Origin: Clostridium sp.
GTDB lineage: Bacteria; Bacillota; Clostridia; Clostridiales; Clostridiaceae
Length of the DNA: 49,003 nt
NCBI GenBank assembly: GCA_022767515.1
Contig: JALENK010000015.1
Span: 1-49,003, forward strand
Reading direction: 5' to 3'
Shown: positions 5,692 through 22,410 of the stretch, piece after piece
Numbering within the stretch: position 1 is the first letter of the stretch
Layout of the letters: each line of letters opens with the position of its first letter
Notes under the pieces: generated by a model
What the model saw: only the letters and a program-made list of their open reading frames with translations
Told to the model about the DNA's origin: nothing
The model's database searches: none
Program-made: the position numbers and the translations under genes

Positions 5692-5854
5692 TTTTCTTCC
5701 CCCTTTTAAAGCCTACATAAGTAATGATACCACTAATTAAGAACATTGTGTTAACTTTTTTGAATTTTTTACATAATCTTCACATATAAACCAATAATTT
5801 GTATATGATAATCTTAATTATTATGGTAAAAAGCAAAGTTTCTTTAAATAAAAA

Positions 5855-5882
5855 TAGTTCAAGGCATAGCTACCTTGAACTA
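5855..5882 (-). terminator. Terminator of the nfnAB operon
   Basis: A 10-bp perfect stem (5855-5864 with 5873-5882) and an 8-nt loop are followed on the minus strand by TTTTTATTT. It lies 30 bp after the nfnB stop codon. Confidence 0.88.
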
Positions 5883-5912
5883 AAGTAAAATCAAAAAAAT
5901 TTACTATTAAAA

Positions 5913-7298
5913 TTATTTATTTCTTAAATATTCATCTATTCCCTTAGCAGCTTTCTTTCCAGCTCCCATAGCTAATATTACTGTAGCAGCACCAGTTACT
6001 GCATCTCCACCAGCAAATACTCCCTCTCTTGAAGTAACACCAGTTTCTTCAGATGCAATAATACATTTTCTCTTGTTAATATCTAATCCCTTAGTAGTTG
6101 AATGTATTAATGGATTTGGAGATGTACCAAGTGACATAATTACAGTATCAACATCCATAACAAATTCTGAACCTGGAATTTCTACTGGTCTTCTTCTTCC
6201 AGATGCATCAGCTTCACCAAGTTCCATTCTAATACATTTTATTCCTTTAACCCATCCTTTTTCATCTTCAAGAATTTCAACTGGATTAGTTAATAAATCA
6301 AAGATTACACCTTCTTCTTTAGCATGATGTACTTCTTCTCTTCTTGCTGGAAGTTCTTCTTCACCTCTTCTATATACTATGTGAACTTCAGCTCCTAGTC
6401 TTAATGCAGTTCTTGCAGCATCCATAGCAACGTTACCACCACCAACTACAACAACTTTCTTACCAGCTCTTATAGGTGTAGCATAATCTTCATTAAATGC
6501 TTTCATTAAATTATTTCTAGTTAAAAATTCATTAGCAGAAAATACTCCATTAGCATTTTCACCTGGAATTCCCATAAATCTAGGAAGACCTGCTCCTGAA
6601 CCAATAAATACAGCATTAAATCCTTCTTCATCCATTAATTCATCTATTGTTATTGTTTTACCAATAATAACATTAGTCTCTATATTAACACCTAGTTTTT
6701 TAAGATTTTCTATTTCGCTTTGTACTACTTTATCCTTTGGAAGTCTGAATTCTGGAATACCATATTCTAATACTCCACCTGCTTTATGTAATGCTTCAAA
6801 TATAGTAACATCATATCCTAATTTAGCTAAGTCCCCTGCACAAGCAATTCCTGAAGGGCCACTTCCTATTACAGCAACTTTTTTACCATTCTTAGGTGCA
6901 GTTTCAGATAAGTCAATTTTATTTTCTCTAGCCCAGTCTGCAACAAATCTCTCTAATTTTCCTATTGCAACAGCTTCACCCTTAATTCCAAGTACACATT
7001 GACCTTCGCATTGATTTTCTTGTGGACATACTCTACCACATACAGCTGGTAATGCAGATGATTTTGAAATTATCTTTATAGCAGATTCAAAATCTCCTTC
7101 TTTTACTTTAGCTATAAATTCTGGAATTGAAATACTTACAGGACACTTACTAACACATCTTGGATTTTTACAATGTAAACATCTTGATGCTTCAGCCATT
7201 GCTTCTTCCTTTGTGTATCCTAAACATACTTCATCAAAGTTAGTAGCTCTTACCTTTGGATCTTGTTCTCCCACTTTAACTCTTTTCATTCTATCCAT
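5913..7298 (-). CDS. nfnB: NADH-dependent ferredoxin:NADP+ oxidoreductase, beta subunit NfnB (GltA-like)
   Basis: This 461-residue flavoprotein belongs to the glutamate synthase small-subunit family. The N-terminus has two [4Fe-4S] motifs, CLHCKNPRCVSKCP and CGRVCPQENQCEGQC. These are followed by an FAD-binding GSGPSGIACA and an NADP-binding GGGNVAMDAA. No glutamate synthase large subunit is nearby, and the partner gene is the NfnA-type subunit, so the NfnAB transhydrogenase is the better call. That complex couples NADH and reduced ferredoxin oxidation to reduction of two NADP+. Its ATG overlaps the nfnA stop by one base (TAATG), with RBS GGAGGTGA inside nfnA, indicating translational coupling. 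Confidence 0.92.
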   Translation of the reverse strand: MDRMKRVKVGEQDPKVRATNFDEVCLGYTKEEAMAEASRCLHCKNPRCVSKCPVSISIPEFIAKVKEGDFESAIKIISKSSALPAVCGRVCPQENQCEGQCVLGIKGEAVAIGKLERFVADWARENKIDLSETAPKNGKKVAVIGSGPSGIACAGDLAKLGYDVTIFEALHKAGGVLEYGIPEFRLPKDKVVQSEIENLKKLGVNIETNVIIGKTITIDELMDEEGFNAVFIGSGAGLPRFMGIPGENANGVFSANEFLTRNNLMKAFNEDYATPIRAGKKVVVVGGGNVAMDAARTALRLGAEVHIVYRRGEEELPARREEVHHAKEEGVIFDLLTNPVEILEDEKGWVKGIKCIRMELGEADASGRRRPVEIPGSEFVMDVDTVIMSLGTSPNPLIHSTTKGLDINKRKCIIASEETGVTSREGVFAGGDAVTGAATVILAMGAGKKAAKGIDEYLRNK

Positions 7299-14609: not shown

Positions 14610-15760
14610 TTATTCCCACAGTCCTTTGTATGGATTATACTTACACTTCCCTGTTTTTTTATTTTTTTCATCACATATGGGTCTACAATCACTACACGCA
14701 TATCTATATTCACAGTCCCTACATATCTCGATACAATCCATAGATAAATTCCAAAACTCTTTTTTTACATACTCTTCCATTATTTGTCTCAAACTATTTT
14801 GTTTCACATTATAACTGTAATCAATATATTTATTCCCCATTATGCATGGAGATATAAAACCATCACAAGTTATATTTATTTTTCCTTGCCAACAAGAATT
14901 TCCACTTATGTTCTTTACAAAATCATCCCTTGAAATAAGTTTAAAATTAGGTCTAATAGCTTGACTATCTGACTGTATTACTAGACTCTTCTTTGAAATG
15001 CCAACATCTCGTATCAAATCACATTTTGGTTTTACTCCAGTTAAGTCATAAACAAATTTGATAATATTTTCACTTATTTTATAATTATCGTTCATTATTG
15101 CAATATTTGCTTTTACATATATATTATGTTGCTTTAATTTTTTTATTGCTTTAATTTTTTTATCAAAGCTACCTTTTCTTCTTCTAACAAGGTTAAATTT
15201 GAATATAATACAATTTTTGCATTTGGAAATATTTTTCTAACAAATAGCACCAACTTATTGATTCCATCAAATATTAATGGCTCTCCACCAATTAATATTA
15301 TTTTACTCACATTGTAATTATTTAATTCCATTATAACACTTTTCCATTCATCAAGTGTTAATTTTTCTAAATTTTTATCTGTTTGATAATCAGAATCTAA
15401 ATAACAATGCTTACAATTAAAATTACATGACCTTCTTAGCTCCAGCCACACAGTATCTATATTGTCATATTCAATTTTTTCGATTTTCTCCCCTACTTTT
15501 TTTGTTTCTGAAAACTTTCCAAGACTATTTTTTTGAAGTAAAAATAAATACTCAATAAATCTTGTTTTATCCGCATCATCTAAATCTATTAATGCTTCTT
15601 TAATAGTTGAACCATTAATAAGTCTATTCAGATACGTCTTTGTATCGTGATCTATTGAGTATAACTTCTTATTATTAAAATTATGTATTAATCCCCTATA
15701 AGCACCATTAACTAAAACAATGCCCTTATTAAAAATAAAATATTTATTCTCTTTTGATAA
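14610..15760 (-). pseudogene. Radical SAM / SPASM-domain maturase, disrupted by a 17-bp tandem duplication
   Basis: Two minus-strand reading frames make one protein. The upstream frame (from a stop at 15761-15763 down to 15143) contains an N-terminal segment NKYFIFNKGIVLVNGAYRGL. It then has the radical-SAM motif RRSCNFNCKHCYL and IILIGGEPL. The downstream frame (15095 to 14610) has a C-terminal SPASM-like cysteine cluster, with CWQGKINITCDGFISPC and CRDCEYRYACSDCRPIC. The break is a perfect 17-bp tandem repeat at 15130-15146 and 15147-15163. Removing one copy joins the frames as LIKKLKQHNIYVKANIAIMN. No ATG, GTG or TTG with an RBS begins the N-terminal segment either, so the start may also be lost. 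Intact relatives modify ribosomal peptides or enzymes, but no peptide substrate gene is visible here. Confidence 0.85.
15130..15163. repeat. 17-bp perfect tandem duplication inside the radical-SAM pseudogene
   Basis: TGCTTTAATTTTTTTAT occurs twice head to tail (15130-15146 and 15147-15163). As 17 is not a multiple of three, it shifts the frame. The two flanking coding frames are offset so that deleting one copy restores continuity. Confidence 0.97.
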
Positions 15761-18570: not shown

Positions 18571-19458
18571 ATGCCAAGAAGAAAGAAAATGAATATAATT
18601 GTAATTTCATTATTAGGGATATTAGCAACATTAGTAATTTATATACTTATTTCCAATGATAATAATTCTAATAATGAAATTGCAAATAGCTCTATTACAA
18701 CTAATATTATTGAAGATGATAAAAATACTGACCAGAATACAGATAATAAAAAAGATAATCAAAACTTAAATGATACTATTTTACAGGTTAACAATAATAT
18801 TAATATTCCTGTTCTTTATTATCACTCCGTTAATCCTTCAGAAGAGAATGAATTAATAATCTCTCCAGCTAAGTTAAAACAACAACTACAATATATTAAA
18901 AATCTAGGATATAGTTCCATAACTATGAAAGAGTATATAAGCTATTTAAAAAACAATACTCCTCTTCCTGAAAAAAGTGTTTTAATAACCTTTGATGATG
19001 GATATATGGATAATTATACATATCTATTTCCTATATTAAAGGAACTAGATTTTAAGGCAACTATTTTCTTAATCACATCAGGAATCGATGATGGTTACTA
19101 TCTATCTACAGACCAAATATTAGAAATGCATAAATATGGAATAGATTTTGGTAGTCATACTGTAAATCATTCTCATCTAGCAGAATTAACAAACCATGAA
19201 ATAATAAGTGAGCTTACAAATTCACGTGATGTACTTAAAAAAATATTAAAAACAAATATAACTTCAATAGCTTTTCCTTATGGAAATTATGACGAAAGAT
19301 GTATTGAGGCAGCCCAAAAAGCTGGGTACTCGGTGGCCTTTACAACAACATATGGAACCACTAATAGAAGCTCTAATATGTATGAACTAAAAAGAATTTA
19401 TGTAAGTTCAAATTATAGCTTTGAACAGTTCAAACAAAGATTTGAAAATGCAAAATAA
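18571..19458 (+). CDS. Membrane-anchored polysaccharide deacetylase (NodB domain)
   Basis: The 295-residue protein has a short basic N-terminus, one transmembrane segment (about 8-28) and an Asn/Asp-rich linker. A NodB deacetylase domain follows from about residue 88. The catalytic motif TFDDGYMDN, the metal-binding SHTVNHSHL and FPYGNYD are all present. It probably removes acetyl groups from peptidoglycan or an exopolysaccharide on the outer face of the membrane. RBS TAGGAG lies before the ATG at 18571. It is monocistronic, with a strong bidirectional terminator. Confidence 0.92.
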   Translation: MPRRKKMNIIVISLLGILATLVIYILISNDNNSNNEIANSSITTNIIEDDKNTDQNTDNKKDNQNLNDTILQVNNNINIPVLYYHSVNPSEENELIISPAKLKQQLQYIKNLGYSSITMKEYISYLKNNTPLPEKSVLITFDDGYMDNYTYLFPILKELDFKATIFLITSGIDDGYYLSTDQILEMHKYGIDFGSHTVNHSHLAELTNHEIISELTNSRDVLKKILKTNITSIAFPYGNYDERCIEAAQKAGYSVAFTTTYGTTNRSSNMYELKRIYVSSNYSFEQFKQRFENAK

Positions 19459-19489
19459 GTGTGCTTAATTTACAAAGCACACTTATTTT
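19452..19489. terminator. Bidirectional terminator between the deacetylase and SigI/RsgI-like genes
   Basis: A 15-bp perfect stem (19452-19466 with 19475-19489) has an 8-nt loop and A/T-rich flanks on both sides. It serves the two convergent genes. Confidence 0.93.
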
Positions 19490-19498
19490 ATTAAAATC

Positions 19499-20512
19499 TT
19501 ATAATATATTTTCTATACTTTCTAATAGTTTATGTTGTTGGCCTGCATTATTTACAAGAACATTTATCTCTCTACTTTTTAAATATGCACCAGTTTTTCT
19601 TAATATTCCATAATCAAGTTCTTTGCCCAAAACAGTTATTAAAATTTTTTTATCATATATCATTTCATTTTTTTCTGCATAACGTAATGCCTCAACTAAG
19701 GCCTCATCTACAGTACAACCTATAAGAGTTGTGTTATCTATTAGTTCTTGTCCTCCCTTATCCTTTGCAGTAGCAACTATAACCTTATCATACTCATTAA
19801 CCTCTAAACGTATATCAGACGAAGTTTGTAACATTATTGTTGTTACTACTTTAGTATAGTTTAAGTATAAGGCATATCCTATAGCCGCAACAAATAAACA
19901 AACAATCAATATTTTTATTCCCCAATTTTGGCTTTTCTTACTATTTTGTCTATGAACTTCTAATCCAATTGCATCTCCCTTATCTTTTCTTACCCTAAAG
20001 AATAACCCTTGTTTTGTCATAATAATATTGCTATTACTAGTGGTTGCAATTATTAAACCTTTAAAGCTATTTTGATTATGTATTTTAGACTCTTCATTTT
20101 TTTCTTTCAATGATTCTGTTAGTCTAATCGTTAAATAATTTTTTAAAATTTTATATTTTTTTTCACCTAATATTAATGTATATATAATTATATAATCATT
20201 CCATTTTTCAAAAAATAAATTATTTCTTCTTGTATACTTTACAAGTTTAGGAACTGGTAATGCCTTATTTAATAACATTTCTTCATATAATGACTTATTA
20301 TCCACAATATAATATGCTACATTTAATATTAAATTTGCTTCTGATTCTATTGGCTTTATTTTATATAAATCTCTAAAAAATATTTTATATTCAGCAAGTT
20401 CTATTGCTAAACTTGATATAGCATTTTCTCTCTGCTTAACAACTGATTCACTAATATCTGTCATTGCCATTGACTTACTAAAGCAATATTGATTTTTCAA
20501 AAATTCATTCAC
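19499..20512 (-). CDS. SigI C-terminal domain fused to an RsgI-type membrane anti-sigma factor
   Basis: Residues 28-130 align without gaps to the C-terminal region of Bacillus SigI: ELAEYKIFFRDL to QLKDYGLSFKEL, and KALPVPKL to KQLPVKQL. However, the DNA-recognition segment (SRKTIERNRKYI in SigI) is degenerate (RRNNLFFEKWNDYI). Residues 149-186 match the cytosolic RsgI N-domain (KGLIIATTSNSNIIMTKQG). A transmembrane helix follows at 200-216, then the extracellular RsgI middle domain (219 to about 320). The Asn-Pro autocleavage site of RsgI proteins is SS here (231-232). No sigma-2 domain is present. The start is GTG after GAGGGGTGAT. It may be an intramolecular sigma-domain/anti-sigma unit of unknown role. 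Confidence 0.78.
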   Translation of the reverse strand: MNEFLKNQYCFSKSMAMTDISESVVKQRENAISSLAIELAEYKIFFRDLYKIKPIESEANLILNVAYYIVDNKSLYEEMLLNKALPVPKLVKYTRRNNLFFEKWNDYIIIYTLILGEKKYKILKNYLTIRLTESLKEKNEESKIHNQNSFKGLIIATTSNSNIIMTKQGLFFRVRKDKGDAIGLEVHRQNSKKSQNWGIKILIVCLFVAAIGYALYLNYTKVVTTIMLQTSSDIRLEVNEYDKVIVATAKDKGGQELIDNTTLIGCTVDEALVEALRYAEKNEMIYDKKILITVLGKELDYGILRKTGAYLKSREINVLVNNAGQQHKLLESIENIL

Positions 20513-20615
20513 TAATCACCCCTCTCTTTCTTATTGATTATTATATCACAATTTATATATGTATGTTAAAATATGAATTAATACATTAATTATTTATCGA
20601 AAGGAGCTATTTTTT

Positions 20616-21083
20616 ATGAGAGTTGGACTTGGATATGATGTACATCGCTTAGTTGAAAATCGTGATTTAATTATCGGAGGAGTAAAAATCCCACATAACT
20701 TAGGACTTCTTGGACATTCTGATGCTGATGTATTACTTCATGCAATTATGGACTCCATCTTAGGAGCAGCATGCCTTGGAGATATAGGAAAGCATTTTCC
20801 TGATACAGATGACAAGTATAAAGGTATATCAAGTATTCTTTTATTAAAAGAAGTAGGCAAATTAATATTAGATAAAGGATATACTATAGGAAATATAGAT
20901 GCCACTATCATTGCTCAAAAACCAAAGATGTTACCCCATATTGATACTATGCGAAGAAATATAGCCGAAGCTTTAAATATTGATATAAATAATATTAATA
21001 TAAAAGCAACTACTGAGGAAAAGCTTGGATTTACTGGTCAAGAACTTGGTATTTCATCACAAAGTATTTGTTTGTTAATATAA
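20616..21083 (+). CDS. ispF: 2-C-methyl-D-erythritol 2,4-cyclodiphosphate synthase
   Basis: The 155-residue protein has the normal length for IspF. The opening [12 protein letters not shown] carries the zinc ligands Asp8 and His10. [16 protein letters not shown] carries the third ligand, and [11 protein letters not shown] follows. The C-terminal [18 protein letters not shown] is the CDP-binding loop. It makes MEcPP in the non-mevalonate isoprenoid pathway. RBS AAAGGAG. It is monocistronic, divergent from the SigI/RsgI fusion, and ends at a strong shared terminator. Confidence 0.97.
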
Positions 21084-21107: not shown

Positions 21108-21157
21108 AAAACAAAAGAGCTATTACCTATTGTCGTCAGTAATAACTCTTTTGTTTT
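21108..21157. terminator. Bidirectional terminator between ispF and the convergent unknown gene
   Basis: The stem has 12 bp, one mismatch and then 6 bp (21108-21126 with 21139-21157), with A and T tracts on either side. Confidence 0.88.
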
Positions 21158-21830
21158 ATAATACCTCTGTTAGACTTTTTTGTAGAATTTCTCTAAAGCG
21201 TACTCCTACATCATCATTATTAATTGCTTCTTTACAAATTTCTTTCCATTCATCAATTTCTACACCAATTTTGTTTTTAAAATTTTCTTCATTTTCTATC
21301 ATTAAAATTGATTTAACAACAAAATCTCCAAGACTCTTTGCATCCTCAAAAACCTTTAAATACAAAAATCTTTTATTATTACCAAACCACTTCTTATTAA
21401 AATTTCTTGCGAATTTTATTAACTCTGGTAATATTCTGTTATGTGGTATATCCCACATTCTTTCTACCTTCTCATAACATTCCTTCATGTCTTTGGCAAC
21501 TTCTTTAGTAATCCTTCCTTCATTTAGGCTAGTCTTTATTAATTTTTCTACTGTAATAGATGGGATTTGTGTAATTAACTTATCTCCACCATATATCCAC
21601 TTAAAAAAAGCTTCTTGCAAAAATGAATATTGGATATAACCTAATAAAACTTTTGCATCTGGAAAATATGCATAAATATTATCAATTCCACTTTTCTTAG
21701 TAAAAATTAAAGTATGAATAAATAGTGATCTAGGAGTAGGAAGCTGATTCATAAACATATGGCCTCTTATTGTTTGATTCTTATTTGCCATCTCATCCCA
21801 ATATTTAAAGGAATTATAGCTTTGTCTCAT
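21156..21830 (-). CDS. Conserved hypothetical protein of unknown function
   Basis: I do not recognise this protein of about 224 residues. It has no signal peptide, transmembrane helix or cysteine cluster. It is rich in aromatic and basic residues (FKYWDEMANKN, KKWFGNNKRFLYLKVFEDAKSLGDFV) and predicted mostly helical by eye. The start chosen is the ATG at 21828-21830, which follows GGTGAT at a good distance. An in-frame GTG three codons earlier overlaps that RBS. Transcription converges on ispF and the two genes share a terminator. Confidence 0.6.
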   Translation of the reverse strand: MRQSYNSFKYWDEMANKNQTIRGHMFMNQLPTPRSLFIHTLIFTKKSGIDNIYAYFPDAKVLLGYIQYSFLQEAFFKWIYGGDKLITQIPSITVEKLIKTSLNEGRITKEVAKDMKECYEKVERMWDIPHNRILPELIKFARNFNKKWFGNNKRFLYLKVFEDAKSLGDFVVKSILMIENEENFKNKIGVEIDEWKEICKEAINNDDVGVRFREILQKSLTEVL

Positions 21831-22005
21831 AGATATCACCCTACCTTCTGCAAATATTACAACGTTTACTTATAATTTTATTATAGAATATAATGCACAT
21901 TCTTTCAATAATTTTATATAAAATATTCAATGTTTGAACTAAATTATAATATACTATATAATATAATAGTAGTACTTAAAATTTATAATTTTTAGGGGGT
22001 AAACT

Positions 22006-22410
22006 TTGTTTTATTGCGAAATTTGTAATAATAAAGCTGATATACATCATATTGTTCATAGGAGCGAAGGTGGTTTAGATATTGCAATAAATTATAAATA
22101 TTTATGCGAAGAACATCATAGAGGTAAAGACGGACCTCATCATTGTTTAGAAACAGATTTAAAATATAAAATAGAATTACAAAGTAAACTCTATAAATTA
22201 CTTCCTAAAGCTTTTTATCCTTTTAAGGACTTATTACACCTATTAAACCTATCAACTAATACATTAAAAAAAATAACAAAAGAACTAAAATTATATAAGG
22301 AAGGATATAAAAAAGAAGAAGTTATTTTATTTTTAATGGGTGGAAAATCTTATACAGATGAAACCTTAGAAAATTACAAATTAGAACTTCTATTTAATAA
22401 ATTAAGATAA
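22006..22410 (+). CDS. Small HNH-type protein with a C-terminal helix-turn-helix-like region
   Basis: The 134-residue protein starts at a TTG codon preceded by AGGGGG. The N-terminal 45 residues form an HNH-like zinc motif: CEIC, IHHIVHRSEGGLD, an Asn in INYKYLC, and CEEHH. The remainder (LLNLSTNTLKKITKEL followed by KEGYKKEEVILFLMGGK) looks like a small MerR/excisionase-like DNA-binding region. A nuclease or DNA-binding role is inferred, but no toxin, phage or restriction neighbour supports a specific function. It sits directly before the thrS T-box without an evident terminator. Confidence 0.65.
   Translation: MFYCEICNNKADIHHIVHRSEGGLDIAINYKYLCEEHHRGKDGPHHCLETDLKYKIELQSKLYKLLPKAFYPFKDLLHLLNLSTNTLKKITKELKLYKEGYKKEEVILFLMGGKSYTDETLENYKLELLFNKLR

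Follow-up and report, generated by a model that had tools for sequence, protein, structure and literature searches.

Does a single membrane protein carry in cis both the C-terminal domain of the sigma factor SigI and its anti-sigma factor RsgI, and if so, what is such a protein kept for? The question is raised by a gene in a stretch of 49,003 nucleotides from Clostridium sp. (contig JALENK010000015.1, hereafter the window), whose product had been described in a first-pass annotation as a fusion of this kind with no sigma-2 region. The gene lies on the minus strand at 19499..20512 and comprises 337 codons and a stop, with a GTG start. A ribosome-binding site, GAGAGGGGTGA (20516..20526, minus strand), and an inverted repeat, AAGTGTGC-12-GCACACTT (19457..19484, assigned to no strand), were read from the sequence; the repeat is a possible bidirectional terminator, and the terminator/promoter scan of the window made no call at this position. 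A putative sigma-A-like promoter, TTAACA-18-TATAAT, was located at 20540..20569 (minus strand) by its match to the consensus.

Domain composition of the fused protein

The product begins with a motif at residues 4-12 (20477..20503; minus strand, as for all the features of this gene), with the approximate family pattern FxKxKYxFS and a predicted short strand at residues 9-11. The SigI C-terminal domain was matched by profile and structure model at residues 22-131 (20120..20449), and is followed by an RsgI_N domain at residues 151-187 (19952..20062), a predicted membrane helix at residues 197-220 (19853..19924), and an extracellular RsgI_M (SEAL-like) domain, found by profile and model, at residues 222-323 (19544..19849). 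At the Asn-Pro autocleavage position the protein has Ser-Ser, residues 231-232 (19817..19822). RsgI_N and RsgI_M both scored above the Pfam cut-offs, the former with 31.5 bits against 25. The best SigI family score, 46.8 bits, fell far short of the cut-off of 244, and the nine SigI models that matched (9/9) begin at profile position 103 or later, indicating that sigma-2 (SigI-N) is absent. The SigI-C half showed the same predicted fold as SigI1C, with 23% identity across the 115 residues of the model alignment; this is a clear structural match for residues 28-130, the part that the annotation had assigned to SigI-C. Collectively, the profiles and the predicted fold confirmed that this is a real SigI-C/RsgI membrane protein with the two partners joined in cis and sigma-2 missing, as had been proposed.

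All the domains of the fusion are already known, and what seems new is their joining in one protein. With SigI (spore_sigI, TIGR02895; PDB 8i23, 8i24 and 6ivu) it shares the C-terminal domain, but it has no sigma-2, its -35 contacts are eroded, it is membrane-anchored, and it falls far under the SigI family cut-offs. With RsgI (RsgI_N PF12791, RsgI_M PF23750; B. subtilis RsgI, 8t9n) it has in common RsgI-N, the helix and the extracellular domain, and it differs by its SigI-C in cis and by its cleavage and degradation motifs, described below. It also has no cognate sigI beside it: in the surrounding 14 kb, the profile search picked up the fusion alone. To our knowledge, no fused SigI-C has been reported for RsgI8 of C. 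thermocellum. Like the fusion, RsgI8 is an RsgI devoid of the self-cleavage motif, but it is a separate protein that gives a ClpXP-degradable fragment, whereas RsgI9, an 'orphan' RsgI of the same organism, does autocleave and has an extra cytoplasmic stretch described as disordered (available text of PMC12203970). Among the titles and abstract beginnings of the open-licence literature, no description of a SigI-C/RsgI fusion was found; the accessible parts of PMC6362236, PMC7690194 and PMC6056542 deal with SigI or RsgI as separate proteins.

Conservation and altered residues

Within the same genus, a relative of the window protein was detected in 65 of 68 genomes, each in a frame of at least 330 residues; in some of the matches counted, a stop interrupts the matched part, and G011, G036 and G054 are included as listed. 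The three genomes with no match have an estimated completeness of 59, 78 and 90%, and when the genus was restricted to genomes at least 95% complete, the fusion was present in 55/55. In the family, a profile of 30 orthologues matched 183/206 genomes at E 1e-8, a figure that mixes fusions with separate sigI-rsgI pairs. A single frame spanning SigI-C to RsgI was found in at least 104 of the 206 family genomes and in 17 of 46 genera; the number is made up of the 65 in the genus and 39 others counted from the matches listed, and it includes partial matches in G186, G187 and G181, whose fused ORFs were seen at their loci. Among species that bear a name, the fusion occurs for example in Clostridium cibarium, C. 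vincentii, C. paraputrificum, C. uliginosum and C. gasigenes; a scan of named genomes in which the window protein itself was the query found no carrier. RsgI_N and RsgI_M were each detected in all but one of the aligned members (29/30). Fusions of 366, 390 and 409 residues were observed at L143, L144 and L145 (genomes G024, G030 and G055), and the matches in these genomes came in two pieces parting near query positions 130-160, suggesting that the linker from SigI-C to RsgI-N is longer there.

Outside the Clostridiaceae, no fused frame was seen in the order and class genome searches, within their limits. The class search covered 391 genomes at a cut-off of E 1e-28, which weaker fusions could escape, and gave nine matches: seven from the same genus plus G235 and G352, in both of which the matched stretches contain stop codons. 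Among the matches listed for the 19 genomes of the order outside the family, L164, L168, L169, L170 and L181 are separate sigI and rsgI genes, and ORF calling in G221 (L172) gave no match.

The analysis of 13 close pairs by the Nei-Gojobori method gave dN/dS ratios of 0.08-0.52 in 12 of them, the thirteenth being saturated at synonymous sites, and the first 140 codons gave 0.07-0.50 in the same twelve; the values of several pairs are rough because dS was near or above 1. As judged from these ratios, purifying selection acts on the fusion in the close pairs. The earlier view that the gene looks maintained is thus supported by its presence in 65 of the 68 genomes and by the ratios below 1, and the survey and the dN/dS analysis did not give the outcome named against that view, i.e., a fusion confined to this strain with a decaying sequence.

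Next, the DNA-contact residues were compared in 59 SigI and 56 distinct fusions, with the contacts and numbering taken from the available text of the SigI1/SigI6 open-complex paper (PMC10575876). The expected residues were more frequent in SigI than in the fusions at K/R170 (40/59 and 13/56, respectively), H/Q171 (55/59 and 3/56), K/R172 (28/59 and 17/56), S/T174 (58/59 and 11/56), K/R215 (58/59 and 8/56), K/R219 (54/59 and 27/56) and K/R221 (59/59 and 21/56). Positions 215, 219 and 221 were all basic in 53/59 SigI and in one of the 56 fusions, and a one-residue gap at 173 was found in every fusion (56/56) and in no SigI (0/59). Position 222, which is not a listed contact, was K/R in 56/59 SigI against 3/56 fusions, 42/56 of which have Asp/Glu instead. 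In the window protein, the -35 contacts H/Q171, K/R215 and K/R221 are replaced by Glu, Leu and Asn, respectively, so the DNA-recognition segment is degenerate, as the annotation had stated. The protein keeps Lys at 219, and the mean net charge of positions 200-224 was +6.2 in SigI and +1.8 in the fusions, with +3 in the window; since 27/56 fusions are basic at 219 and the segment is net positive, weak DNA binding is still possible. Two residues are newly conserved in the fusions: Tyr227 (53/56, against 0/59 SigI) and Asn176 (51/56, against 10/59).

For the cleavage motifs, 56 separate RsgI were also included. The Asn-Pro site was present in 45/56 separate RsgI and in none of the 56 fusions, in agreement with the Ser-Ser replacement noted in the annotation. 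Ala-Ala occurs in the membrane segment of 48/56 separate RsgI (mean of shuffled segments 18.1, maximum 26), and its frequency in the fusions, 8/56, is at chance level (shuffled mean 7.3); the window protein is one of these eight, with Val-Ala-Ala in its membrane helix. In C. thermocellum, XAA motifs in the RsgI membrane helix are ClpXP signals, and the XAA ends are recognised by ClpXP once RseP has cleaved (available text of PMC12203970). The same source reports that RsgI8, with no self-cleavage motif, still yields an N-terminal fragment that is a ClpXP substrate, and that blocking the cleavage of B. subtilis RsgI leaves signalling partly intact. Therefore, a protein may lack Asn-Pro and still be a signalling RsgI, and a release route besides self-cleavage could exist.

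The N-terminal motif, defined as basic/polar-aromatic-any-Phe, was found in 50/56 fusions (shuffled mean 2.2, maximum 8) and in 0/59 SigI, and a looser pattern in 53/56 fusions (shuffled mean 9.7). When a remnant of the SigI N-terminus was searched for with a profile of the 59 SigI, none of the 56 fusions rose above the shuffled 99th percentile. With a profile of 24 nearer SigI, which 34 of 35 other SigI passed as a positive control, two of 56 fusions passed, with 0.56 expected: L117 with 16.3 bits, a score reached by 0/5600 shuffles, and L183 with 11.4 bits (p 0.0004). These two were also the only positives among the lineages listed in a fixed-register score, which is biased because it is anchored on the motif's own Phe. 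It is no more than possible, on these comparisons, that the motif is a leftover of the SigI N-terminus.

The locus and the origin of the fusion

The divergent neighbour of the fusion gene at 20616..21083 (plus strand), which we take to be ispF, belongs to a cluster found in 44 of 50 distinct fusion loci, and another neighbour presumably encodes an aldehyde dehydrogenase. The convergent gene at 18571..19458 (plus strand) encodes a polysaccharide deacetylase (PF01522, E 7.1e-34), with its cluster in 26/50 loci. In the 50 loci, rluF lies directly downstream in 25, in 22 of them with a gap below 60 bases or an overlap, and a sortase gene directly upstream in 12; the neighbours were named as sortase (PF04203), RluF (NF007784, above cut-off), PdaC/DUF3298 and polysaccharide deacetylase. 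The window has no adjacent sortase and rluF, and the best matches elsewhere are 28% and 46% identical, respectively. The gene of C. perfringens sortase D, possibly the counterpart of the sortase gene at these loci, is reported to share its operon with the gene of a cell-wall anchor protein (available text of PMC4498605). Next to ispF, the genes at 21156-21839 (minus strand) and 22006-22410 (plus strand), of 227 and 134 residues, gave no Pfam match at E 0.01; in a set of 53 fusion loci that contains three duplicate records, their clusters occur 35 and 34 times, respectively. It was also observed that two adjoining ORFs at 14610-15451 (minus strand) look like one broken radical SAM gene, with the N-terminal part (PF04055) at 15143-15451 and a Cys-rich part at 14610-15095.

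Among the separate-SigI loci fetched, two of 32, from two other genera, lie at the fusion locus. In L161 (G121), the genes for rluF, deacetylase and sortase come after sigI-rsgI; the RsgI there carries Asn-Pro, and the full-length SigI narrowly misses the TIGR02895 cut-off (172.4 against 185). L153 (G160, 5839-7055), beside deacetylase, sortase and ispF genes, encodes a full-length divergent SigI (83.6 against 185) with altered DNA-contact positions, and an RsgI of 184 residues with no Asn-Pro. L117 (G117) has both arrangements, with a separate sigI-rsgI pair immediately before the fusion.

Trees were built with the 56 distinct fusions, 59 SigI and 56 separate RsgI, drawn from part of the genomes known to carry them. 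In the SigI-C tree, obtained by a quick method, unrooted and with 123 columns, 56/56 fusion domains lay to the same side of a single branch (SH-aLRT 97), and L153 grouped with SigI, apart from the fusions. In the RsgI tree, 54/56 fusion halves grouped with the short RsgI of L153 (SH-aLRT 97); also on this side (SH-aLRT 90, midpoint root) were the separate RsgI from L117 and L161 and four short third-gene RsgI; L125 and L183, from one genus, stood outside the main group on another long branch, a placement flagged by the tree program as possibly false. The four short RsgI are the third gene of sigI-rsgI operons in L156 (7506-8090), L157 (7525-8103), L158 (4649-5233) and L179 (7052-7639); they are 192-195 residues long, show Pro-Pro where Asn-Pro would be expected, and may be degenerate RsgI. 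They resemble the fusion in the loss of Asn-Pro and in their side of the RsgI tree, but they have no SigI-C, lie behind a separate sigI-rsgI pair, and are outside the fusion clade. The loci and trees make a sigI-rsgI pair at the ispF/rluF/sortase locus the probable ancestor of the fusion: a local or duplicated pair would have degenerated, lost sigma-2, and then fused.

What the fusion may do

When the C. cibarium orthologue (L100) was modelled over residues 1-195, the prediction had a pTM of 0.85 and a pLDDT of 86.7, with confidence below 50 in the linker residues 141-145. The high pTM despite this linker led us to infer that SigI-C and RsgI-N are packed in one chain, and the cytoplasmic part is thus predicted by the model to be one packed unit, a pre-formed SigI-C/RsgI-N complex. 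According to the available text of PMC10575876, one SigI-C surface binds both the RNA polymerase flap and RsgI, in competition, so the cytoplasmic module would probably be in a locked state. A stable membrane protein is the simplest account of a chain that has lost sigma-2, most DNA contacts, self-cleavage and Ala-Ala. We therefore give about an even chance to the proposal that a sigma/anti-sigma pair was domesticated into a membrane-anchored, non-transcriptional protein, kept after losing its job as a switch. The DNA-reading domain of the sigma factor would have been bound for good to the anti-sigma domain on the cytoplasmic side; the protein would stay anchored in the membrane, with its outer RsgI-type domain meeting the cell wall, and another protein may use the locked module together with the N-terminal motif for docking or as a structural unit. 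The sortase, polysaccharide deacetylase and PdaC/DUF3298 neighbours suggest a cell-wall role. Reuse for another job is probable, and its place is perhaps the cell envelope. More tentatively, and at somewhat short of even chances, the conversion would have happened, perhaps once, in an ancestor within the Clostridiaceae and given a non-transcriptional envelope protein, with L153 as a living lineage that shows the step before fusion.

The protein could also still be a regulator, in which a wall signal acts through another protease, the SigI-C/RsgI-N unit is released or opened, and free SigI-C touches the flap or a new DNA site and changes the expression of envelope genes. The retention of the SigI-C fold and the outer domain, the envelope genes often clustered with the fusion, and the Val-Ala-Ala kept by the window protein fit this idea, as do the SigI-C surface that serves both flap and RsgI (PMC10575876) and the ClpXP-degradable fragment of RsgI8 (PMC12203970), both as given in the accessible text. 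Nevertheless, sigma-2 is absent, the DNA contacts are eroded, Asn-Pro is missing in 56/56 fusions with Ala-Ala at chance level, and, to judge from the predicted model, RsgI-N in the same chain probably covers the surface that would bind the flap; hence, we regard continued signalling as rather unlikely. The protein may still be the 'new membrane regulator' put forward in the annotation, although we lean to a non-transcriptional protein.

The annotation had also considered a decoy, which would titrate further SigI or RsgI proteins by presenting a partner domain. Both partner domains are indeed present in one protein, and a SigI match at E <1e-30 was obtained in 31/68 genomes of the genus (model NF006173; the match in G021 has three stops). 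However, with the same model and threshold no full-length SigI was found in 34 of the 65 fusion-bearing genomes of the genus, nor in 25 of the 55 that are at least 95% complete; the window's genome (88.75% complete) yielded neither a SigI above the cut-off nor another RsgI_N, and SigI-C and RsgI-N are predicted to pack onto each other. As a main role, titration is thus very improbable. The last suggestion, a decaying fossil of a deleted sigI-rsgI operon, agrees with the missing sigma-2, with a genome-search SigI match that stretches upstream of the fusion through four stop codons, and with the separate sigI-rsgI at the same locus in L161 and L153. Although the gene probably does come from a local sigI-rsgI pair, decay is contradicted by the matches in frames of at least 330 residues in 65/68 genomes, the dN/dS below 1, and the conserved N-terminal motif and domain cores, and we assign it a negligible probability.

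The fusion would be a membrane protein with wide conservation in clostridia, for which the libraries searched report RsgI_N, RsgI_M and a far sub-threshold SigI, and nothing else. An RsgI_N match in Clostridium need not signify a sigma-I circuit, because 34/68 genomes of the genus have the fusion with no full-length SigI found. If domestication into a non-transcriptional protein is the right reading, this would be a transcription switch turned to another use, with steps of the change visible in living genomes.
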